Source: a virus
Strand: one strand, 5' to 3'
Length of the DNA stretch: 29,503 nt
IMG/VR virus record: IMGVR_UViG_3300017767_000077
Coordinates: 1-29,503 of that record
Shown: positions 6,886 to 29,073 of the stretch, piece after piece
Numbering within the stretch: position 1 is the stretch's first letter
How the letters are laid out: each line of letters begins with the position of its first letter
Position numbers and translations under genes: made by a program
Notes under the pieces: model-generated
What the model was told of the DNA's origin: nothing
What the model saw: the letters and a program-made list of their open reading frames with translations, nothing else
Databases searched by the model: none

Positions 6886-7034
6886 TGTTTAAAAAATTAA
6901 AGGATGGTGAAAAATTTCCAGTTGATTTTTGGAATTATAATATAAATCCAATAACAGGTTATTATATTAAGCCACAATTACGTAAAGAACATAGTGATAA
7001 AATAGCTAAAAAATATGCAAAACCAAGAACATGA
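6885..7034 (+). CDS. Small basic protein, hypothetical
   Basis: A 49-residue protein with a TAATG start on the SSB-like gene and an ATGA end on the helicase gene. It reads MFKKLKDGEKFPVDFWNYNI, then NPITGYYIKPQL and a Lys/Arg-rich tail. It is soluble and basic. Its coupling to both SSB and helicase suggests a replication accessory role, but no family is recognised. Confidence 0.5.
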   Translation: MFKKLKDGEKFPVDFWNYNINPITGYYIKPQLRKEHSDKIAKKYAKPRT

Positions 7035-7939
7035 TAGCTCAATATGCTTCAATAAAAAATAAAATACTTGATGTTAAATATGGCCGTGTAAAAGAAGGTC
7101 TTGGTATAGGTATACAAGGCATTGACGAATATTTAAGATATAAGCAGGGCAACTTTAATTTACTGATTGGCCATGCTAACACTGGCAAGACTACGATTAT
7201 TTGTTATTTATTTGTTGTTTGGGCGATAAAACATGATTTAAAATTTTTAATTTGGTCAAGTGAAAATACTCCACAAAGTATTGTTAGAAAAATTATAGAG
7301 TTTAAAATGAATAAACCTATACAAAAATCTAGCGATGATGAGATTAGTGAAGCAATGAATTGGTGTGATAAACATTTTAAAATAATTGATGTCGAAGATT
7401 TATATAATTATCAACAGTTAATAAAAGAGGCAGACGCTATAAAACAAGCTTGGAATTATGATGCTTTATTAGTAGATCCTTATAATAGTTTGTCTAAAGA
7501 TTACACATTATTAAAAGTAGTAGGAGGCCACGAGTACGATTATCAAGTTGCATCTGAATTTAGAATGTTTGCAAAGAAAAATAATATTACAATATATTTA
7601 AATGCTCATGGTGTAACAGAAGCATTAAGAAAGACACATCCTGCAAACCATGAGTACGCTAATTTATCTAAACCACTATCAATGGCTGATGTAGAAGGTG
7701 GTGGAAAATGGGGTAATAGAGCAGATGACGTAATTTGCATACATAGATATACTAGTCATTCAAGCGAATGGATGTATAGTAATTTATATGTGCTTAAAGT
7801 AAAAGAAAATGAAACCGGAGGTAGACCTACTCCATATGAAGAACCAATTAGGTTAAAAATGAAAATAAACAATACAGGATTTGAGTTTATGAATAAAGAT
7901 ATATTAAAAACAAAAAATAATAAAAAATTAGTATTTTGA
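7031..7939 (+). CDS. DnaB-like replicative helicase (RecA-fold ATPase)
   Basis: A 302-residue protein. Walker A is GHANTGKTT (47-55), Walker B is YDALLVDPYNSL (143-154, Asp149). Further blocks are LNAHGVTEALRKTHP, SMADVEGGGKWGNRADDVICIHRYT and a KVKENETGGRPTPYEEPIRL segment. The layout is a DnaB C-terminal/Twinkle-like ATPase without the N-terminal DnaB domain, a form usual in flavobacterial phages. It should unwind the phage DNA at the fork. No primase gene is evident in the window, so it probably recruits the host primase. Confidence 0.82.
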   Translation: MIAQYASIKNKILDVKYGRVKEGLGIGIQGIDEYLRYKQGNFNLLIGHANTGKTTIICYLFVVWAIKHDLKFLIWSSENTPQSIVRKIIEFKMNKPIQKSSDDEISEAMNWCDKHFKIIDVEDLYNYQQLIKEADAIKQAWNYDALLVDPYNSLSKDYTLLKVVGGHEYDYQVASEFRMFAKKNNITIYLNAHGVTEALRKTHPANHEYANLSKPLSMADVEGGGKWGNRADDVICIHRYTSHSSEWMYSNLYVLKVKENETGGRPTPYEEPIRLKMKINNTGFEFMNKDILKTKNNKKLVF

Positions 7940-9453: not shown

Positions 9454-9597
9454 ATGGACAAGCAAATGTTACGATTTAAAAATGCTGGTAAAATAGGCGA
9501 AGCTATAGGGTTAGCAAGACACTTACTTAATTACCCTGATAATACAAAAGACAAGTTAAAAGAGCTTATTAAAATATTAGATAGTATAAAATTATGA
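9454..9597 (+). CDS. Small helical protein, hypothetical
   Basis: A 47-residue protein (MDKQMLRFKNAGKIGEAIGL, then ARHLLNYPDN and a KELIKILDSIKL helix). It is entirely helical by pattern, with no membrane segment. It is the first gene after the second promoter motif and overlaps the DUF6378-like gene by an ATGA. No family is recognised. Confidence 0.5.
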   Translation: MDKQMLRFKNAGKIGEAIGLARHLLNYPDNTKDKLKELIKILDSIKL

Positions 9598-9860
9598 ATA
9601 TTTTAGATGAAGCTAATAAAATAATTAACGAACGTTCACAAGAAAAGGAAAGACTATACGGCCCTTTTTCAAAAGGTATGGAACGTGCAGCTAAAATTGC
9701 ATCAGCTTGTACTGGTAAAGATTTAACAGCTAAAGATATGTATATGGCTATGGTAGCTCTAAAACTATCAAGAGAGTCTTATAATCATAAAGAAGATAAT
9801 TTACTAGATGCAGTAGCATATTTAGCTGCTTTAAATAATTACGAGAATGAGCGAAAATAG
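9594..9860 (+). CDS. DUF6378-like protein (nucleotide-metabolism-associated)
   Basis: An 88-residue helical protein. The pattern ILDEANKIINERSQEKERLYG, then GMERAAKIASACTG...TAKDMYMAMVALKLSRES and EDNLLDAVAYLAALNN, matches the DUF6378 family as I remember it (xxYGxxxxNFxRhAxhh...LKLARE...DNhhDhAGY). The family resembles all-alpha NTP pyrophosphohydrolase-type proteins, so a dNTP-pool role is possible but unproven. It overlaps the following SGNH-like gene by 14 bases, placing it at the head of the presumed modification cassette. Confidence 0.62.
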   Translation: MNILDEANKIINERSQEKERLYGPFSKGMERAAKIASACTGKDLTAKDMYMAMVALKLSRESYNHKEDNLLDAVAYLAALNNYENERK

Positions 9861-10758
9861 AGCTATAGTTGGAATTGTTAGCAACCCTGTTAAAAGTTTA
9901 AATAGTCATAATGGTGGTTGGACTCTCGTGTTAAAAAGTATGTTTGACGCTGATATATTAACAGAAAAGGATGATTGGAATAAGTACGATGAAATTATTT
10001 TATCTGAAGGTATAAACTACAAAGAAGGGAAGTTTAATTTTTTTGGTGGAGTGCAAGAAGGTTTTTATACTAGATTAGAAAAGTTAAATAATTACAACGG
10101 TAATGTTTTTTGTATTAATGAAATGATAGATTATAATGTTGTATGTAAAAAACGTAAAGAATTAAAAGGTTTATCATGTAATAAAATTCCTAAGATTATA
10201 TACACTAAAGACATATCATCAAAACTTATATTAGGCGATAGTCATAGTGTATCAGTATTTAAACATGGTTATGCTATAGATAGACATGATGGTAAAACAT
10301 TAAATGGTTTTTTAAAAATAGGTTTAAACAAATATTTAAATGATAATATAAAAGAGCTAATATTTTATGCAGGTAATATAGACATGAGATTTCATGTACA
10401 TCGTTTTGGTGGTAGAAAAGCAGTAGTTGATTTAATTAGAAAATTGTTTGAACAACTAGGAAAACTATATTTAGATAAAATAACTTTAGTTTGTTTATTA
10501 CCTATAGAAGATGAATCAAGAAAGATACCAGGTACGGGACTATATAAAGACAAACCATTTTTCGGTAGTCAATTAGATAGATTGTATTATGTAAACGAGT
10601 TTAATAAACTATTAAAAAGAGGTTGTTTGCATTATGGTTATAATTTAATAGAATGGGATTTAGATTATGAGAATGGTTTATCGTTTGATAATATGGAATC
10701 AAGACAATCTGTACATTTAAAACCAAAGTCATATAAATATATAGATCAGTTATGTTAG
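9847..10758 (+). CDS. SGNH-hydrolase-like protein in presumed base-modification cassette
   Basis: A 303-residue protein. Residues about 120-300 carry the blocks of an SGNH/GDSL enzyme: KLILGDSHSVSV (GDS at 130-132, Ser132 the likely nucleophile), IFYAGNIDMRFH (Gly176/Asn177, block III), and RQSVHLKP near the end (His290). The usual Asp three residues before the catalytic His is Gln here, so the catalytic pair may be incomplete. Residues 1-115 form a separate domain of unknown type (GIVSNPVKSLNSHNGGWTLV). SGNH enzymes hydrolyse or transfer ester-linked acyl or sugar groups. Co-translation with three putative DNA-modification genes suggests it decorates or trims a modified base; this is inference. 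Confidence 0.55.
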   Translation: MSENRAIVGIVSNPVKSLNSHNGGWTLVLKSMFDADILTEKDDWNKYDEIILSEGINYKEGKFNFFGGVQEGFYTRLEKLNNYNGNVFCINEMIDYNVVCKKRKELKGLSCNKIPKIIYTKDISSKLILGDSHSVSVFKHGYAIDRHDGKTLNGFLKIGLNKYLNDNIKELIFYAGNIDMRFHVHRFGGRKAVVDLIRKLFEQLGKLYLDKITLVCLLPIEDESRKIPGTGLYKDKPFFGSQLDRLYYVNEFNKLLKRGCLHYGYNLIEWDLDYENGLSFDNMESRQSVHLKPKSYKYIDQLC

Positions 10759-11645
10759 AGCAATTTAAAGATTACTATAATAAAGCTAAGATGAATCAAC
10801 AAAGATTATATCAAGGCTATAATTGGACAAAGGAAGATATTAATGATGATTTAATTTGGCATGTTCCTATATATGATGTCGTAAATAGAAAGTATGCAGC
10901 TTTTAGTAGTTTGTTAGAAGCAATAGATAAAAAGGAATTAGACCCTAAAGGAAATGGAAATTACTTTAAAGATCATAAAATAGACAAAGATAATTTTATT
11001 TACTTATCGTATTTATTTAGACTATGCGGATCAGGTATTAACTATAGACCAAAAGACCTTTTACCTTATGGTAGTCATGGATTTGGAAACTTTTGGATTG
11101 TACAAGAGCTAGTATTAAAAAGATACAATATTAATGATTGGTTTAAAAACTTGCCAGAAAAAGGTTTTTGTGATGTTAAAGGTTATTTACTACCTATGAT
11201 AAAAAAAGGATTAAGAAACTTTATATTAGAAGACTCTTTAAATTTAGTTGATGATATAATGAATGAAGCGCAACAAGGTGGCTATTCTATAACTGATGTA
11301 GTTGATTTAGGAAATCATTGGTTAAGATCAAGAGGCTTTAAAAGACAAAACTTTGTGTTGACTGCTTTTGCTATGGATTTAGCTGAGTATTATCCTGATC
11401 TTGTAGACCAAGACAGTGATGTATATGTAGGCTCTAACGCGTCTAAATGTTTAAAGATGATATTACCTAATATGAGAAAAAACGAAGCCTTACGCTATCT
11501 CTGTCAAATAACTGGAAATCATTCTAAGCCTTATGATATGGAAGATGTTGCTTGTGATTTTATTAGATATATAGATAATTTTCAAAGTGATCATCACATA
11601 AGAAAAAATAATAATATTAAATACTGGAATAATGTTCTTAAATAA
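10752..11645 (+). CDS. Putative amino acid:DNA transferase/aGPT-Pplase-like protein
   Basis: A 297-residue, mostly helical, soluble protein. Its conserved-looking core is LSYLFRLCGSGINYRPKD, then LLPYGSHGFGNFWIVQEL; later GGYSITDVVDLGNHWLRSRG and a DVYVGSNASKCLKMILPNM segment. The R-x-x-GSGxx...HGFGN pattern recalls the all-helical DNA-glycosylase-like families (amino acid:DNA transferase, alpha-glutamyl/putrescinyl thymine pyrophosphorylases) that attach amino acids or amines to phosphorylated 5-hydroxymethyl pyrimidines in phage DNA. This is a recollection, not an alignment. The neighbours, a PLP enzyme and a hydroxymethylase homologue, are the usual companions of those families. It overlaps both neighbours. 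Confidence 0.45.
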   Translation: MLEQFKDYYNKAKMNQQRLYQGYNWTKEDINDDLIWHVPIYDVVNRKYAAFSSLLEAIDKKELDPKGNGNYFKDHKIDKDNFIYLSYLFRLCGSGINYRPKDLLPYGSHGFGNFWIVQELVLKRYNINDWFKNLPEKGFCDVKGYLLPMIKKGLRNFILEDSLNLVDDIMNEAQQGGYSITDVVDLGNHWLRSRGFKRQNFVLTAFAMDLAEYYPDLVDQDSDVYVGSNASKCLKMILPNMRKNEALRYLCQITGNHSKPYDMEDVACDFIRYIDNFQSDHHIRKNNNIKYWNNVLK

Positions 11646-12522
11646 ACAGAGTACACAAGCTAATAATGATTTAAAAGATTATAGTCTTAACGATTATTTA
11701 GAACAAACTAAAAACTTTAAGTCATCTTTTAAAGAATTTGATGTAAAACAAGTATATGGATTTAATATAATTGATGAATCTGTATCTTGCGAGGTAGGTT
11801 ACAAAGCAAGAAGCGGTGAGTACTTTATACAATATATTGCTAATCAAGGTGTTAAAGAAATAGTTTATGTACAACCAAGAAGAGGTTTTGCTGGTATTTC
11901 TCTTTCATGGTTATGTAAAAAGTATAATTTAAATTTAACTTTAGTAATGCCATCTTCAAAAGAAATAAGTGATCACCAAGCTTTGTGTATAGAGCTAGGA
12001 GCTAAGCCGTTGTTTGCTAGAATAGCAGCCATGCCTAATGCTAACTCTTTAGCAAAAAAATATGCTAAAGCAACTAACTCTTATTATGTACCTTTAGGTT
12101 TAAATCATCCTTTAGTAATTGCCGGTGGAGTAAGATGTGTTTATGATTATTTTAAAAATAGAGTTAAACCAAATACTATTTGGTCAGTTATATCTACTGG
12201 TGTTTTAACAAGGACTTTACAGATAGCTTTACCTGATACTAAATTTAGAGCAGTTGCAGTAGCTAGAAATATACAACAAGGAGAATTAGGTAGATCTGAT
12301 TTTTATTCTTATCACAAACCATTTAATTCTAAGTCTGATTTAATTCCTTTAGGTTTTAATAGTGAAGATTCATACGATGCAAAAGGTTGGGATTATATGG
12401 TTAAACATGGTAAAAAAGGTGATTGGTTTTTTAATGTAGCAGGAAACGCTAATAAACCAACAATAGATAAAAAGACTATAAACTCTTATAGAGATTGGAA
12501 TGATTTGAAAGATTTTTTATAA
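11632..12522 (+). CDS. Fold-type II PLP-dependent enzyme (tryptophan synthase beta-like)
   Basis: A 296-residue protein with the layout of cysteine synthase/threonine synthase-type PLP enzymes. EVGYKARSGEYFIQYIANQG (54-73) would hold the Schiff-base Lys58 (GYKxRSG, like GSFKxRG). Next come EIVYVQPRRGFAGISLSW in the position of the SSGNhG loop, LTLVMPSSKEISDHQALCIE with ELGAKPLFAR, and WSVISTGVLTRTLQ where the glycine-rich phosphate loop is expected. The loop Asn that touches the PLP ring is Phe here, and the glycine loop is reduced. It may act on an amino acid attached to DNA, as PLP enzymes do in some thymidine-hypermodifying phages, or on a free amino acid. Confidence 0.65.
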   Translation: MFLNKQSTQANNDLKDYSLNDYLEQTKNFKSSFKEFDVKQVYGFNIIDESVSCEVGYKARSGEYFIQYIANQGVKEIVYVQPRRGFAGISLSWLCKKYNLNLTLVMPSSKEISDHQALCIELGAKPLFARIAAMPNANSLAKKYAKATNSYYVPLGLNHPLVIAGGVRCVYDYFKNRVKPNTIWSVISTGVLTRTLQIALPDTKFRAVAVARNIQQGELGRSDFYSYHKPFNSKSDLIPLGFNSEDSYDAKGWDYMVKHGKKGDWFFNVAGNANKPTIDKKTINSYRDWNDLKDFL

Positions 12523-12532
12523 ATTTGTTAAT

Positions 12533-13189
12533 ATGATATTTAAAAATGCAGAACAAGCGTTTCATTATTTGTATAGTGAAATACATAGAACAGGGATAGA
12601 TCATGGTAATACTAAAGCATTGTTTAATATAGGTTTTTATATTGCTAACCCTTTAGATAATAATATTAATTTAGATTTTAGAAAACTAAATAAAAAATAT
12701 GCTGAAGCAGAATGGCAATGGTATTTATCAGGTGATAGGAATGTTAATAAGTTAGGAGAAATATATGGTAAAATTCCTGAAATATGGAAAAATATGGCAG
12801 ATGAAAATAATGAAGTTAATTCTAATTACGGATGGCAGTGGTTGCAGAACTCTCAATTAGATAGAGTAATAGATAAATTACATGCTAATAGAGAAACCAG
12901 ACAAGCAACCATTTCTATCTATGATGGTAAGCAGATAGATAGATATTCTAATGATACACCTTGTACTTATGCTATTACTTTTAATATAGTAAAAGATGAA
13001 TTACACATGTCAGTATTGATGCGTAGTAATGATTTATGGTTTGGATTTTGTAATGACCAATATTGTTTCAGTAAGTTACAAGAATTAGTATCTAAAGAAA
13101 TTGATGTTAAAATTGGTACATATTATCATCATGCTACTAATTTACATGTATATAATAATTTTTTAAATAAATACTATGAGACTAAATAA
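12533..13189 (+). CDS. Thymidylate synthase-family dNMP hydroxymethylase
   Basis: A 218-residue protein with thymidylate synthase blocks: YAEAEWQWYLSGD (Glu60), NYGWQW (98-103), an ETRQATISIYD strand, DTPCTYAITF with the catalytic Cys144, RSNDLWFGFCND (164-175), and HHATNLHVYNN (His205, Tyr207 for the sugar). Aligned on RS-x-D-xxx-G, Asp175 falls where thymidylate synthase has the Asn that selects dUMP (E. coli Asn177). T4 dCMP hydroxymethylase also has Asp there. It is therefore likely to make 5-hydroxymethyl-dCMP (or less likely dTMP or hm-dUMP), the precursor for the modification cassette. It lacks the longer N- and C-terminal parts of cellular enzymes. Confidence 0.75.
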   Translation: MIFKNAEQAFHYLYSEIHRTGIDHGNTKALFNIGFYIANPLDNNINLDFRKLNKKYAEAEWQWYLSGDRNVNKLGEIYGKIPEIWKNMADENNEVNSNYGWQWLQNSQLDRVIDKLHANRETRQATISIYDGKQIDRYSNDTPCTYAITFNIVKDELHMSVLMRSNDLWFGFCNDQYCFSKLQELVSKEIDVKIGTYYHHATNLHVYNNFLNKYYETK

Positions 13190-13478
13190 TGAATTTGAGC
13201 CTATTAGAGAATGGGCTGATGAAAGAGGTATATATGAAAAAGGAGACCCTAAGACACAATACCTTAAATTAATGGAAGAGGCTGGCGAATTATCACAAGC
13301 AATACTTAATAAAGATAAGATTGAAATAGAAGATGCTATAGGAGATATGGTAATTGTATTAACTAACTTAGCTAGATTATGTAATTTAAGTATTGAAACT
13401 TGTATAGAATCAGTTTATTTTGAAATAAAAAACCGTAAAGGTGAAATGAAAAATGGAACATTTGTAAAAAATAAATAA
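13176..13478 (+). CDS. MazG-like nucleoside triphosphate pyrophosphohydrolase
   Basis: A 100-residue protein spanning a single MazG domain. It has the metal-binding motif LMEEAGELSQAI (32-43: Glu34, Glu35, Glu38) and IEDAIGDMVIVL (51-62: Asp53, Asp57). MazG enzymes hydrolyse (d)NTPs to monophosphates and pyrophosphate. Directly after a dNMP hydroxymethylase homologue, it could remove the unmodified dNTP to favour the modified one, as dCTPases do in T4; it could also lower (p)ppGpp or house-clean. It overlaps both neighbours. Confidence 0.82.
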   Translation: MRLNNEFEPIREWADERGIYEKGDPKTQYLKLMEEAGELSQAILNKDKIEIEDAIGDMVIVLTNLARLCNLSIETCIESVYFEIKNRKGEMKNGTFVKNK

Positions 13479-15388: not shown

Positions 15389-16561
15389 ATGAAGGTTAAA
15401 AAAACCGAAGCTTTATCGAAATTACGTGCACTTAAAAACCGTATTAAGGTTGTAAGAGGAGGTACATCCGCTGGTAAGACAATATGTATTATACTTATTT
15501 TAATAGATTATGCCATAAAGAACGAAGGTAAAGAGATAAGTATAGTATCAGAGTCGGTCCCACACTTACGTAGAGGCGCTCTAAAGGACTTTCTGTCTAT
15601 ATTAAATGGATTAAATAGGTATAAAGAAAATCAGTTTAATAAGAGTACTTTAAAATATATATTTACAAACGGTAGCTATATTGAGTTTTTTAGTACAGAT
15701 CAGCCAGACAAATTAAGAGGAGCAAGAAGAACAGACTTATATATTAACGAATGTAACAATGTACCATTTGATGCATACAACCAATTAGTAGTAAGAACAT
15801 CAGGTAGTGTATGGTTAGACTATAACCCTTCTAGTTTGTTTTGGGTAGACAAAGAAGTACTAGGACAGCCAAAAGTAGACTACGTTACATTAACTTATAA
15901 AGATAATAATGTACTACCTAAGTCTATTGTAGACGAGATAGAAAAAGCTAAAGAGAAAGCAAAGACCTCGACTTACTGGTCAAATTGGTGGAAAGTATAT
16001 GGCTTAGGAGAGACTGGATCTCTTGAAGGTGTGTGTATATCAGATTGGAAAGAGATACCATCAGTACCAGATGAAACAAGATTATTAGGTTATGGCATGG
16101 ACTTTGGATATAGTGTAGACCCTAGTACCCTTGTAGCATTATACAAGTATAATAATTCATACATATTTGATGAGGTCTTATGCAAAAAAGGAATGCTAAA
16201 TAGCGATATAAGTCAATTTTTAAAAAACAATCAAGTTAACGATATAATCTACGCAGATAGTGCTGAACCAAAATCTATAGCCGAATTGTTAAGCTACGGC
16301 CATCCTATATATCCTGTAAGCAAAGGAAGAGACTCTATTGTATATGGAATCAACTTAATAAATCAGAACATTATATATGTTACTCAACGAAGTAAAAACT
16401 TAATAAGAGAACTAAATGGCTATATTTGGATGCAAGATAAACAAGGCAATACATTACAAAAACCTAACCCTACAAGCGGTGATCACTGTATTGACGCAGC
16501 AAGATATATCCTTAGCTCTATATTAGAGAATCCAAATAAAGGAGAATACTACATTTACTAA
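15389..16561 (+). CDS. terL: Terminase large subunit
   Basis: A 390-residue DNA-packaging motor. The ATPase half has Walker A GGTSAGKT (24-31) and Walker B LYINECN (117-123, Glu121), with a VWLDYNPSS coupling block. The RNase-H-like nuclease half has GYGMDFGYSVDPS (Asp238), IIYADSAEPKS (Asp290) and GDHCIDAARY (Asp365, Asp369). The length is slightly short for the family (usually 400-500) but both domains are complete. It is followed by an 80-base gap with a promoter-like motif rather than by a portal gene, which is not the usual order. Confidence 0.93.
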   Translation: MKVKKTEALSKLRALKNRIKVVRGGTSAGKTICIILILIDYAIKNEGKEISIVSESVPHLRRGALKDFLSILNGLNRYKENQFNKSTLKYIFTNGSYIEFFSTDQPDKLRGARRTDLYINECNNVPFDAYNQLVVRTSGSVWLDYNPSSLFWVDKEVLGQPKVDYVTLTYKDNNVLPKSIVDEIEKAKEKAKTSTYWSNWWKVYGLGETGSLEGVCISDWKEIPSVPDETRLLGYGMDFGYSVDPSTLVALYKYNNSYIFDEVLCKKGMLNSDISQFLKNNQVNDIIYADSAEPKSIAELLSYGHPIYPVSKGRDSIVYGINLINQNIIYVTQRSKNLIRELNGYIWMQDKQGNTLQKPNPTSGDHCIDAARYILSSILENPNKGEYYIY

Positions 16562-26381: not shown

Positions 26382-27284
26382 ATGGACATAGTAGAACTTT
26401 TTATAGATGAAAATGATGAGGTTTCTGGAATAGAAGCAATATCAGTAGTAGAAAACCCAGCAATAGAAGAAAACTTTATAGCATTAAAAAACCAAGAGTT
26501 TAAACTTGCAGAGGTAGACAAAGAAAAGCGTATCCTTATGGGTGCTGCTTTAATACCTAACAAACCTATTTACAGACAAAGTGGTGAGCAGGAGTATTAT
26601 ATATATTTTAGTCAAGCAACTGTAAGAAAAGCAAGTGAATTATTCTTTATAAAAGGTAATCAAAACAATTCAACATTAGAACACCAATTAGAACTCAAAG
26701 GTTTAACTGCTGTAGAAAGTTGGATAGTAGAAAGTGAACAAGATAAAAGCAGAATGTACGATTTAAATGTGCCTATTGGTACTTGGATGGTATCTATGAA
26801 AGTAAACAACGATGATGTTTGGAAAAAAGTAAAAGCAGGTGAGGTAAAAGGCTTTAGTATAGAAGGTTACTTTGCTGACAAATTAGAAAGACCAAATGAA
26901 CCTGTAAAAGATAAAATGAGTAAAGAAGAAATAGCTGAAGCTAAAATAGAAGAACTAAAACAATTATTTAGTACTGAAAAAGTAGATTTAGCTATAAACA
27001 ATGAATTAAAATTAAATGCTGAACAATTACAAACTAAATTAAATAAAGCAGTAGCTGATTATAAAAAAGGATTAAAACAAGTTAGAATAACAGCAGCAAA
27101 CACCTTAAAAAGATCTGAAAAACAATTTTTCGTATTAGCTAAAGAATTTAAAAATTATTCACGAAAAGCTAAAGAATTAGGAGTAAAAAAAGCAGAAAAA
27201 GAATTTAATAGATTATACAAAATTTGTGATAAATACTATTTAGATGCAGGTTTATATGCAGAAGCAGCAGAAAAATTTAATTAA
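26382..27284 (+). CDS. XkdF-like prohead serine protease with C-terminal helical domain
   Basis: A 300-residue protein. The N-terminal about 170 residues are the XkdF-like/S78-type protease: KRILMGAALIPNKPIYRQ, YYIYFSQATVRKASELFF, NQNNSTLEHQ (His101), VESWIVESEQDKS, GTWMVSMKVNNDDVW and VKAGEVKGFSIEGYF with the nucleophile Ser159. It would cleave scaffold and capsid proteins during head maturation. Residues about 179-300 are a separate helical domain opening FSTEKVDLAIN that is repeated in the two free-standing genes at 27685 and 28046, perhaps a scaffold-like part. Confidence 0.88.
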   Translation: MDIVELFIDENDEVSGIEAISVVENPAIEENFIALKNQEFKLAEVDKEKRILMGAALIPNKPIYRQSGEQEYYIYFSQATVRKASELFFIKGNQNNSTLEHQLELKGLTAVESWIVESEQDKSRMYDLNVPIGTWMVSMKVNNDDVWKKVKAGEVKGFSIEGYFADKLERPNEPVKDKMSKEEIAEAKIEELKQLFSTEKVDLAINNELKLNAEQLQTKLNKAVADYKKGLKQVRITAANTLKRSEKQFFVLAKEFKNYSRKAKELGVKKAEKEFNRLYKICDKYYLDAGLYAEAAEKFN

Positions 27285-27647
27285 ATGAGTAGAATACCAA
27301 GTCCACAATCAGGTCGTAGAGGTTGCTTATGTAAAAATGGTACATATTCTATAGAATGTTGTGATGGTAGTTTTGAAGCACAAGGAGTAGGAAATGTTAC
27401 AGGAATAATAGAAACACCAAGTGCAGGAGAATACGGTTATAGGGTACAAAAATGTGGACATAGCCAAAAAAAACACTTTTACGGTTCTACACAATTAGTA
27501 ATAGGCAATGTATATTATATAAATGCAGACCACGATAACCACGATGGTTGTTATACCGTATTAAGCCAAGACCAAACTGCACACGGTCATCATTTTAGTG
27601 CTGTAACATTATATAACGATTGTGCAGCGTGTCAAGCAGCAAACTAA
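27285..27647 (+). CDS. Cys/His-rich conserved phage protein, unknown function
   Basis: A 120-residue protein, directly after the protease stop (0-base gap). The start MSRIPSPQSGRRGCLCKNGT, then YSIECCDGSFEAQGVGN, is a conserved opening I know from flavobacterial phage head modules. Further Cys/His clusters follow (KCGHSQKKHF, HDNHDGC, HGHHF, CAACQ). The nine Cys and many His suggest zinc binding or disulfides in the virion. Role unknown, probably structural by position. Confidence 0.6.
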   Translation: MSRIPSPQSGRRGCLCKNGTYSIECCDGSFEAQGVGNVTGIIETPSAGEYGYRVQKCGHSQKKHFYGSTQLVIGNVYYINADHDNHDGCYTVLSQDQTAHGHHFSAVTLYNDCAACQAAN

Positions 27648-27684
27648 AAACACAACAAACAGTTAAATATATTATTATATAAAT

Positions 27685-28044
27685 ATGGATTCAAAAACAA
27701 AAGAGATACTACAAAAGTTTTCTACTCAAAAGGTTGATTTGGCTTTAGCAGATGATGCTAAAAAGTTAAATAGTAAGTTTTTTCAAATAGATGAAGATAC
27801 CGCAGGTGGTTTTGTTGTTAAAGCTGAACAAGGATATGAAAAAATGCTAAATAAATATGAATCTTTAAAAAAACAAATAAATTTAACAATGCCTAAACTT
27901 GAACAAGCTGTAAAAGAACTTGGTATTAATAGAAATAACTTTCAAGTATTAGATGATTTAGATAGAAGAAAAGAAGATATAGATGAAAGAATATCTTTAA
28001 TAAGGAAAAACATTAACAATTTAAAATCAATACAAGTTTATTAA
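27685..28044 (+). CDS. Paralogue 1 of the protease C-terminal domain
   Basis: A 119-residue helical protein. Its opening TKEILQKFSTQKVDLALADD parallels ELKQLFSTEKVDLAIN of the protease C-terminal domain, and both continue with LN, a long helix, a K(E)LGI/LGV step and a final helix. It differs by a GGFVVKAEQGYEKMLNKYES segment. It is followed by a 1-base gap and a second paralogue. Likely a head-assembly (scaffold or accessory) protein; function not known. Confidence 0.5.
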   Translation: MDSKTKEILQKFSTQKVDLALADDAKKLNSKFFQIDEDTAGGFVVKAEQGYEKMLNKYESLKKQINLTMPKLEQAVKELGINRNNFQVLDDLDRRKEDIDERISLIRKNINNLKSIQVY

Positions 28045-28045
28045 T

Positions 28046-28411
28046 ATGAAACCAGACGTAAAAAGAATACTTACCAAGTTAAGTGAAAACAAGGTTGAAT
28101 TAGCAAAAAAACCATCTTCAATATTAAATGATGCAAATAAATTAGATAATAAACTAAAAGGGTTAGAGTCTAAAATAGAAAAGGCTTATCTTAATTATAA
28201 GCAAATTCAAAAAGAATGGGTTAATACTTTATCTGATATAAATTCAGATGCGGATAAATTAGAAGATGATTTAGTTAAAATTTTAGATGCTGCACAAGAG
28301 ATAGGAGTAGATGGTAGACAAATAGATGGGTTTTCCAAAGCTGCTGATTTAGTAACTTTTGTGCAAAAAATTTCAACTAATGGAAAAAATTTATATCCAC
28401 CTGTAAAATAA
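28046..28411 (+). CDS. Paralogue 2 of the protease C-terminal domain
   Basis: A 121-residue helical protein opening VKRILTKLSENKVELAKKPS, again matching the [FL]S-x-x-KV[DE]LA motif. It has an LNDANKLDNKLKGLESKIEK helix, then an AAQEIGVDGRQIDGF step like the GI/GV step of the other two. It is the third copy of this domain within 1.5 kb. It lies before the scaffold-like gene, suggesting head assembly. Confidence 0.5.
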   Translation: MKPDVKRILTKLSENKVELAKKPSSILNDANKLDNKLKGLESKIEKAYLNYKQIQKEWVNTLSDINSDADKLEDDLVKILDAAQEIGVDGRQIDGFSKAADLVTFVQKISTNGKNLYPPVK

Positions 28412-28449
28412 AAACATAACAAACTAATTACTAATTTATTGTAATATAT

Positions 28450-29073
28450 ATGAAAGCAACAGATATGTTAAACAAAGTAAAAGAGGTACTTGGGGTAGAG
28501 TTATCCGAAGCACCTGTAGAAGTAAAGTTGGCTCAAGCCGAACTTGAAAACGGTGCAATTATTGAAAGTGAAAACTTTGAAGCAGGAGCAGAAGTGTTTA
28601 TTGTTACCGAAGATGAGAAAGTAGCACTACCAGAAGGTGAGTACAAACTTATAGACGGAGAAACTTTAATTGTTGAAGAAGAAGGTATTATAGCTTCTAT
28701 TGGTGCAGTTGAAGAAGCGCCAGAAGAAGAAGTAGAAGCCGAAGAAGAACCTAAAGAAGAAATGGGTTATGCTACTAAAGAAGAGCTTCAAGAAGTAAAA
28801 GAAATGGTTGAAGAAATTAAAGCTATACTTTTACCTAAAAAAGAAGAAGAAATGGCTGAAGATACGGTATCTGAAACTTCTGTCAAGTCTGAAGAGACAA
28901 CTACTAAAACTGTTTATGCTGAAAAAGAAGAATTAAGCGAAGTAAGCGAACCAGTACAAAAGGTTACTCATAACCCTGAAAAAGAAAACAAACCTAACCT
29001 AAACTTGTATAAACAAAAAAGAACTAATACAACTTTAGATAGAGTGTTAAATAAAATATCAAATATAAAATAA
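28450..29073 (+). CDS. Capsid scaffold-like acidic protein
   Basis: A 207-residue protein. The N-terminal domain has VKLAQAELENGAIIESENFE, GAEVFIVTEDEKVALPEGEY, then KLIDGETLIVEEEGIIASIG. A very acidic linker follows (EEAPEEEVEAEEEPKEEMGY), then a helical segment (EELQEVKEMVEEIKAILLPK), a Ser/Thr/Glu stretch, and a basic C-terminus with TLDRVLNKISN. I know the KLxxGxxIExxxFExGxEVFIV-x-D block from proteins just upstream of the major capsid gene in flavobacterial phages. Acidic middle plus basic C-terminus fits a scaffolding protein that is removed by the protease. Confidence 0.65.
   Translation: MKATDMLNKVKEVLGVELSEAPVEVKLAQAELENGAIIESENFEAGAEVFIVTEDEKVALPEGEYKLIDGETLIVEEEGIIASIGAVEEAPEEEVEAEEEPKEEMGYATKEELQEVKEMVEEIKAILLPKKEEEMAEDTVSETSVKSEETTTKTVYAEKEELSEVSEPVQKVTHNPEKENKPNLNLYKQKRTNTTLDRVLNKISNIK

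Follow-up and report, generated by a model that had tools for sequence, protein, structure and literature searches.

A six-gene phage cassette predicted to decorate 5-hydroxymethylcytosine, with an SGNH-fold enzyme as a candidate substitute for the kinase

A cluster of six genes in an uncultured virus may direct the synthesis of 5-hydroxymethylcytosine (hmC) and its decoration, in the phage DNA, with an amino-acid-derived group, an SGNH-fold enzyme replacing the kinase. We give this reading a probability of about 0.5. It is favoured by the synteny of the genes, a cytosine signature in the hydroxymethylase, the locus occupied by the related genes in a T4-like contig, the fold of the transferase, a PLP enzyme resembling gp52 of Pseudomonas phage M6, the partners of the SGNH protein and the lack of a kinase.

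The window, i.e. the whole stretch of 29,503 nucleotides that was analysed (IMG/VR record IMGVR_UViG_3300017767_000077), is that of a marine-type bacterial virus. The cassette occupies positions 9594-13478, with six genes that overlap or are near-adjacent (Table 1); across 9847-13478 the joints are overlaps of 7-14 bases or, once, a 10-base gap. A preliminary description had listed five adjacent ORFs in 9847-13478, all of which are present there. It had missed the sixth gene, which lies upstream and belongs to the set too. Its thymidylate synthase-family and MazG identities agree with Pfam matches over the cut-off.

Table 1. Genes of the cassette (ORF positions in the window)
Product	Positions	Strand	Length (aa)	Basis
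DUF6378 (PF19905) small protein	9594..9860	+	88	Pfam E=6.8e-13
SGNH-fold enzyme	9847..10758	+	303	motifs and fold
All-helical candidate amino acid:DNA transferase	10752..11645	+	297	predicted fold
PLP-dependent fold-type II enzyme (PALP)	11632..12522	+	296	PF00291 E=4.8e-10 (over cut-off)
Predicted dCMP hydroxymethylase (thymidylate synthase family)	12533..13189	+	218	PF00303 (Thymidylat_synt) E=9.2e-26 (over cut-off)
MazG / PRA-PH-type all-alpha NTP pyrophosphohydrolase	13176..13478	+	100	PF03819 E=1.3e-6 (29 bits, cut-off 22)

Co-occurrence was scored in 45 non-redundant viral contigs with sufficient flank. The SGNH, transferase and PALP genes were together and syntenic in all 45, and a thymidylate-synthase relative accompanied them in 44. 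The DUF6378 gene was found in 44 of the 45 and the MazG gene in 32. The terminases of the phages carrying the cassette have identities as low as 22-30%. Because the set is conserved and syntenic across dozens of contigs, the cassette represents more than chance. Failure of the genes to co-occur in relatives had been named beforehand as a result that would speak against a DNA-base hypermodification cassette; the genes do co-occur, and that reading is supported by the synteny together with the transferase fold, the gp52-like PALP and the hydroxymethylase. DNA and protein searches of a phage database with the cassette or the transferase gave no direct match.

In the scheme that we infer, including each reaction, the order of the last three steps, the donor and the amino acid, dCTP would be converted to dCMP by MazG, perhaps with the DUF6378 protein, leaving the polymerase short of plain dCTP. 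The thymidylate-synthase-family enzyme would hydroxymethylate dCMP, and host kinases would raise the product to hm-dCTP, which would be incorporated into DNA. The SGNH enzyme would then, most likely, esterify the hydroxymethyl group from an acyl donor and so make a leaving group, filling the place of the HMUDK kinase in the M6 and ViI thymidine systems by acylation instead of phosphorylation. The helical ADDT-fold transferase would swap this leaving group for an amino acid, and the DNA-bound amino acid would be processed by the PLP enzyme, for example by decarboxylation. The end product would be an aminoalkyl-cytosine that blocks restriction enzymes.

The SGNH protein carries the motifs GDSH (residues 130-133, with Ser132), GNID (176-179, with Asn177) and SVHL (with His290), and the three catalytic residues are conserved in 103-104 of 104 sequences. 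Its AF2 model (pLDDT 93) matched GDSL lipases and acylhydrolases in the PDB with a Foldseek probability of 1.00, and the sequence had no match in Pfam. Motifs and predicted fold thus bear out the SGNH call made in the preliminary description. The Asp three residues N-terminal of the catalytic His is absent, its place being taken by Gln287 in the cassette and by Gly or Lys in the partner operons described below. The replacement of this block V Asp counts against the hmC reading, and the invariant Glu284 may stand in for it. We regard the protein as a candidate acyltransferase or esterase acting on hmC; we know of no SGNH enzyme that activates a base.

The partners of the SGNH protein are of two kinds. 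In two contigs (L058 and L060) it forms an in-frame fusion with the transferase, and in ORF233c (795 aa) of the isolate Aeromonas phage 44RR2.8t it is joined in frame to an HMUDK_hel-like domain. It also shares operons with HMUDK_hel transferases in large phages (L237-L282), where the DUF6378 gene adjoins it as well. The SGNH protein therefore pairs with two separate helical transferase families, and Asp-type hydroxymethylases occur in both settings. A GTDB scan with the SGNH sequence returned four MAG contigs, of which two (L304 and L305) also encode phage replication proteins.

Amino-acid-derived hypermodifications known to be built by ADDT or aGPT enzymes are on thymine and proceed via a phosphorylated hydroxymethyl group. 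The window has only two Walker A motifs, those of a helicase (7031-7939) and of TerL (15389-16561), and no kinase-type P-loop protein. Within the window, this confirms the earlier remark that no hydroxymethyl-pyrimidine DNA kinase is present. An HMUDK (PF18748) search that recovered M6 gp54 as positive control found no such kinase in this record or in 19 related records of up to 67 kb. With no DNA kinase seen, the route differs from the known ones, as had been suggested. The record is probably a fragment, since it begins inside an ORF and its nearest terminases are those of 42.7-kb Flavobacterium phages; a kinase could therefore lie outside it, which counts against the hmC reading in the form given above.

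These observations bear on the main competing explanation, in which the same cassette acts on hmC, the hydroxymethyl group is a substrate for the transferase as it stands or once an unidentified or host kinase has activated it, and the SGNH enzyme has a last or protective role, acylating or deacylating the amino-acid side chain once this is complete. Most SGNH enzymes are esterases or O-acyltransferases, as the fold matches reflect, and the record may be incomplete. However, the linkage or fusion of the SGNH protein to two different transferase families suggests a common step, before or at transfer, and none of the 20 cassette records has an HMUDK kinase. We consider a late role for the SGNH enzyme possible, at clearly less than even odds.

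The transferase was modelled with high confidence scores (AlphaFold AF2; pLDDT 91.3, pTM 0.90). In Foldseek searches of BFVD the model matched A0A6J5L8T5, named 'Amino acid:DNA transferase domain' (E=2.3e-10, TMq 0.78), the ADDT-named A0A6J5LCY1 (E=1.8e-4) and the aGPT-Pplase1 protein A0A8S5QVR0, each with a probability of 1.00; the probability to HMUDK_hel was 0.5-0.6. On the predicted fold, the protein is a candidate member of the all-helical ADDT / aGPT-Pplase / HMUDK_hel group. Against the PDB, the same model gave noise, with none matching among the 50 listed.

Sequence profiles gave a different result. The PF18724 (ADDT) profile, which recovered M6 gp51 as a control, matched none of 19 transferase family members or three distant ones. 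HHalign gave a probability of 0.2-0.3% against the M6 gp51 ADDT family, on a scale where ADDT against HMUDK_hel also gives just 2.3%, and was negative against HMUDK_hel and the 44RR family. There was no match in Pfam or PHROGs, phmmer and hmmsearch were negative against the PDB, and a GTDB scan found no cellular relative. Membership of PF18724 is thus borne out by no profile test, and the profile failure against ADDT counts against the hmC reading. The resemblance to amino acid:DNA transferases claimed in the preliminary description is confirmed by fold and not by profile; a match to an unrelated family, named there as a contrary outcome, was not seen.

The T4-like contig L304 places the three central genes in a familiar context. 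Its gene order is T4-type DNA polymerase, gp42, dCMP deaminase, SGNH, PALP, transferase, UvsX and gp41 helicase, and its gp42 (47% to T4) is a true T4 gp42 orthologue. Between 42 and uvsX, T4 has b-gt, the gene for the hmC beta-glucosyltransferase, where L304 has the SGNH-PALP-transferase trio. This argues against modification of the nucleotide (hm-dCMP or hm-dCTP) before replication, as the trio stands in for an enzyme that acts on DNA. The transferases of M6, ViI and phiW-14 likewise work on DNA, post-incorporation (PMC6449724). An hmC carbamoyltransferase also acts on 5hmdCTP (PMC8670742), and the pool enzymes MazG, dUTPase and dCMP deaminase adjoin; even so, we think modification at the nucleotide level improbable.

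The PLP enzyme matched PHROG 7093 (E=5.1e-20) and, by HHalign, the M6 gp52 family (97.2%, E=4e-11), in line with its earlier assignment to fold type II. Lys58, the candidate PLP lysine, is invariant in 18 diverse sequences. M6 gp52 works on a thymine-derived base, which counts against the hmC reading. The MazG protein also matched PF01503 (E=1.5e-5, over the cut-off) and PHROG 1992/715, and is a probable dCTP-pool enzyme. The DUF6378 protein is probably a nucleotide-pool or accessory enzyme; the idea that it is a second MazG was unsupported, as HHalign gave no match to the MazG of the cassette.

The hydroxymethylase has Cys144, Thr145 and Asp175, with Cys144 and Asp175 invariant across the family. 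Its best PDB matches were T4 dCMP hydroxymethylase and the CMP hydroxymethylase MilA. Asp175 and Thr145 are the same as in T4 and 44RR gp42, whereas each of the six dUMP enzymes in the comparison (ThyA, Td, SPO1, M6, ViI and phiW-14) has Asn where Asp175 lies and Asn or His where Thr145 follows the catalytic Cys. The dCMP type is marked by an Asp in place of Asn177 of E. coli ThyA and by a residue other than His after the catalytic Cys (PMC8670742), and the protein has this signature. Given Asp175 and the Thr after the catalytic Cys, the base made is most likely 5-hydroxymethylcytosine, and not a thymine as in M6 and ViI. The preliminary description was right about the enzyme family; in place of the thymine of the ViI and M6 systems that it cites, the signature points to cytosine. 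A thymine route, with hm-dUMP as product, would suit the M6-like PALP and the ADDT-like fold, both of a thymidine pathway, and is very unlikely in view of these residues and of the gp42 orthologue beside the trio in L304. It is equally hard to credit that the genes serve an unrelated metabolite or nucleotide-salvage pathway: the linkage to a dCMP hydroxymethylase, the transferase fold, the M6 gp52 kinship and the b-gt locus position all point to DNA modification.

The closest isolate hydroxymethylase is that of Bacteroides phage BF486P2 (48%), which has a carbamoyltransferase nearby. The genes next to the hydroxymethylase of an Agathobaculum phage are not homologous to the transferase.

Several known systems share parts of the cassette. 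In the 5-(2-aminoethyl)-dU (5-NedU) pathway of M6, an ADDT-type transferase also adjoins a PALP of a related family (gp51-gp52), and the hydroxymethylase is also of the thymidylate synthase family. M6 differs in its hm-dU base (Asn in gp58), its HMUDK kinase gp54 and HMUDK_hel gp55, and its radical SAM enzyme gp53 and Nmad5; the cassette has a dCMP-type hydroxymethylase, an SGNH enzyme and no kinase that we could find. The T-even phages combine a dCMP hydroxymethylase (gp42) with decorating enzymes, alpha- and beta-glucosyltransferase, whereas the cassette has no glucosyltransferase and instead has SGNH, PALP and ADDT-fold enzymes. Phages with 5-carbamoyloxymethyl-dC have a thymidylate synthase-family enzyme with the Asp177-type signature, a PRA-PH/MazG neighbour and an acylated hmC hydroxyl, as proposed here; the cassette has PLP and ADDT-fold enzymes in place of their 5hmC carbamoyltransferase (PMC8670742). 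The CmoX/CmoY 5-carboxymethylcytosine-glycine system likewise puts an amino acid on a modified cytosine in phage DNA, as the cassette is proposed to do, but is described as beginning with carboxymethylation at C5 and employing an ATP ligase that resembles asparagine synthetase, as opposed to hydroxymethylation and an ADDT-fold transferase (PMC12783734).

The systems with SGNH and HMUDK_hel have the same SGNH family, a dCMP-type hydroxymethylase and, in the operon form, DUF6378; they differ in using HMUDK_hel as transferase, in lacking a PALP, and in having a myo-inositol-1-phosphate synthase (operons) or a solute symporter (44RR2.8t). We tentatively suggest, as a rather speculative extension, a widespread kinase-free phage pathway in which an SGNH acyl ester serves as leaving group on 5-hydroxymethylcytosine and one transferase family can be exchanged for another beside the same SGNH module, with the ADDT-fold enzymes adding amino acids and HMUDK_hel, with inositol-phosphate synthase, a polyol. 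The cassette also suggests a testable function for the unexplained ORF233c of Aeromonas phage 44RR2.8t. If a cytosine pathway with an SGNH enzyme in place of the kinase is real, its base, its activation chemistry and its strategy against restriction would all be new, would be shared by dozens of uncultured phages and would give viruses a new means of hiding DNA from bacterial defences.

The cassette is probably one for hypermodifying 5-hydroxymethylcytosine (hmC), a reading to which we give a probability of about 0.85. In the 29,503 bases of this single virus record, the five open reading frames of the preliminary description were verified in position, with neighbours that overlap or almost touch, and its thymidylate synthase-family enzyme and MazG were both matched by Pfam.

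Genes of the cassette and their Pfam matches
Gene	Position	Remark
DUF6378 gene	9594–9860	overlaps the SGNH gene; sixth cassette member
SGNH enzyme	9847–10758	no Pfam match
Transferase	10752–11645	no Pfam match
PLP enzyme (PALP)	11632–12522	Pfam match
Hydroxymethylase	12533–13189	thymidylate synthase match in Pfam
MazG/PRA-PH	13176–13478	Pfam match

IMG/VR was searched with the transferase and PLP enzyme as queries, giving well over 100 contigs; after duplicates were dropped and at least 2.5 kb before and at least 4.5 kb after the transferase were required, 45 remained. The preliminary description had made its reading depend on the genes occurring together in relatives, and they do: SGNH, transferase and PALP were present in all 45, the hydroxymethylase in 44 and MazG in 32. 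DUF6378, conserved along with them (44 contigs), is therefore counted as a member. The presence of transferase and PALP follows partly from the queries; that of SGNH and hydroxymethylase is free of this selection. The exact order DUF6378-SGNH-transferase-PALP-hydroxymethylase-MazG was seen in 32 contigs and SGNH-transferase-PALP-DUF6378-hydroxymethylase in 11, with dUTPase and dCMP deaminase inserted in the one contig of the latter order examined (L098). The TerL proteins of these contigs are anywhere from 22 to 100% identical to that of the window, and the cassette has therefore long moved as a unit. A separate SGNH-anchored search of GTDB genomes gave four MAG contigs, three also having transferase and PALP in differing orders; the fourth (L303) carries a thymidylate-synthase relative upstream and breaks off just past SGNH.

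Several copies carry alterations. One branch has a 228-aa lipoprotein-like ORF with no Pfam match between transferase and PALP (L098, 2150–2836; L104, 9299–9985). Other contigs have a likely HNH insertion (L101, 977–1645), an interrupting ORF of no recognised kind (L018, 3130–3690) or a hydroxymethylase gene apparently split between two frames (L074, 5272–5917).

The closest PDB matches of the thymidylate-synthase relative were T4 dCMP hydroxymethylase and a CMP hydroxymethylase. When aligned with reference enzymes, its Asp175, invariant across 18 diverse cassette members, corresponds to the Asp of T4 and 44RR gp42; ThyA and Td have Asn there, as do the dUMP hydroxymethylases of SPO1, M6, ViI and phiW-14. 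After the catalytic Cys there is Thr in the window and T4, His in ThyA and Asn in the dUMP hydroxymethylases. In ThyA numbering, residues 177 and 147 are the two that tell modified-cytosine from unmodified contigs, and PRA-PH and dCMP deaminase domains accompany such hydroxymethylases (PMC8670742); both were likewise found beside the cassette enzyme, in the window and L098, respectively. The target base is most likely cytosine, not thymine, judging by these residues. The proposed 5-hydroxymethyl pyrimidine thus stands as to the hydroxymethylase but not as to the thymine of its M6 and ViI models. The enzyme's nearest isolate relative is in a Bacteroides phage also encoding a carbamoyltransferase.

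A T4-like contig binned with a Rhodobacteraceae MAG (L304) offers the best single argument for the trio of SGNH, transferase and PALP decorating hmC in DNA. Its order is T4-type DNA polymerase (PHROG 262, E = 8.5e-299), gp42 orthologue (47% identical to T4 gp42), dCMP deaminase, SGNH, PALP, transferase, UvsX and gp41-type helicase; that of T4 is 43-imm-42-b-gt-segA-uvsX-40-41. Because these orders correspond, the trio lies at the locus of T4's hmC-glucosylating enzyme.

The PLP enzyme, as first described, is of fold-type II: it is PALP by Pfam, belongs to PHROG 7093 and is kin to the M6 gp52 family (HHalign, 97.2% probability, E = 4e-11), and its invariant Lys58 aligns with the PALP-fold PLP lysine. 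M6 gp52 lies directly downstream of the amino acid:DNA transferase (ADDT) protein gp51, just as PALP follows the transferase in the window. As a lead only, gp52 reportedly decarboxylates a DNA-bound glycine derivative. Relatives of the window's PALP also form part of proteins labelled 'DNA modification methylase' from Erythrobacter phages and one Microcystis phage (L131, KY006853.1 gp1; L132, 7929–8639), and the Microcystis one adjoins ParB/sulfiredoxin genes.

Sequence-profile searches of the transferase for a named family all failed. Its AlphaFold2 model, built from 47 relatives, is of high confidence (pLDDT 91.3, pTM 0.90) and all helical. Among viral structure models the leading matches were one close relative (66%) and one protein without a name; the named ones were two ADDT proteins (E = 2.3e-10, TM 0.78; E = 1.8e-4), aGPT-Pplase1 (probability 1.00) and two HMUDK_hel proteins (0.5–0.6), the rest being at most 0.35 save one further nameless protein (1.00). 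Since the fold matches named members while profiles fail, the model places the transferase in the ADDT/aGPT-Pplase/HMUDK_hel fold group, outside PF18724; the resemblance noted earlier thus holds for predicted fold but not for profile. The solved ADDT-family structure 8z2m, named glycinyltransferase, was absent among the 50 PDB fold matches listed, and the transferase is therefore far from it.

For the SGNH-like protein, predicted fold (pLDDT 93; GDSL lipases and acylhydrolases, probability 1.00) and motifs agree with the first reading: Ser132, Asn177 and His290 are kept in 103–104 of 104 sequences, with Gln replacing the usual block V Asp in the window. What it is associated with gives the strongest clue to its function. 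It is fused in frame to the transferase in two contigs (L058 and L060). In ORF233c of Aeromonas phage 44RR2.8t, an SGNH part (HHalign 100%) is fused to a C-terminal domain falling under the PF18723 HMUDK_hel cut-off (E = 0.0036), which a member of the same family in L244 clears (30.4 bits). Among 60 loci bearing this HMUDK_hel family, 59 have SGNH inside; the other (L272) is cut short upstream. Being fused or linked to both, one SGNH family serves two transferase families, and the hydroxymethylases in phages of both combinations are of the Asp type. HMUDK kinase and HMUDK_hel, adjacent in M6, are the known pair of thymidine systems, so SGNH holds the kinase's place.

The lack of a hydroxymethyl-pyrimidine DNA kinase was upheld for the window, where only helicase and TerL have Walker A motifs. 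Profile searches of the window record and 19 related records of 25–67 kb gave no HMUDK kinase, nor did M6 gp54 as query, which recovered M6's own gp54 as control. The nearest terminases (52%) are those of 42.7-kb Flavobacterium phages; the record is therefore likely partial, probably some two thirds of a genome, and the kinase's absence applies to the available records.

In the proposed pathway, MazG would supply dCMP from dCTP, and the hydroxymethylase would convert it to hm-dCMP for incorporation into DNA. Next, the SGNH enzyme would esterify the hydroxymethyl group and so activate it, after which the transferase would exchange the ester for an amino acid and the PLP enzyme would trim the latter. 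A 5hmC carbamoyltransferase is a precedent for acylating the hmC hydroxyl (PMC8670742). We lean towards an amino-acid-derived modification; an SGNH-made ester as leaving group is a tentative and rather doubtful suggestion. The scheme taken whole has perhaps an even chance, the SGNH step being its weakest link.

The literature searched contained no description of this gene set, and every one of the closest systems is missing some defining part of it. M6 is thymine-based and has a kinase, whereas the cassette has a cytosine signature and no kinase in the available records. T4 differs in putting glucose on hmC, the 5cmdC system adds carbamoyl only, and the 5cxmC-glycine system has another handle and ligase.

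Large phages with contigs to 293 kb (L237–L282; e.g. L244, 66–7630) have an SGNH-HMUDK_hel operon. Its genes run in the order hydroxymethylase, DUF6378, dUTPase, SGNH, myo-inositol-1-phosphate synthase, FkbM methyltransferase (in some) and a short ORF bearing a HAD-like motif, followed by the HMUDK_hel transferase and a C5-cytosine methylase-like gene; this content suggests that a polyol such as inositol may be placed on hmC. In 44RR2.8t (L133, 4405–8385), ORF233c directly follows an SSF-family sodium:solute symporter gene; a solute importer next to a likely DNA-modifying fusion is unusual in a T4-like phage. Elsewhere in the window, PHROG 24921 matches two distinct genes separated by two small ORFs, 26382–27284 (the protease part, also Peptidase_S78_2) and 28450–29073 (the C-terminal part), and the region 26382–29073 appears to be a structural gene that is split or rearranged.
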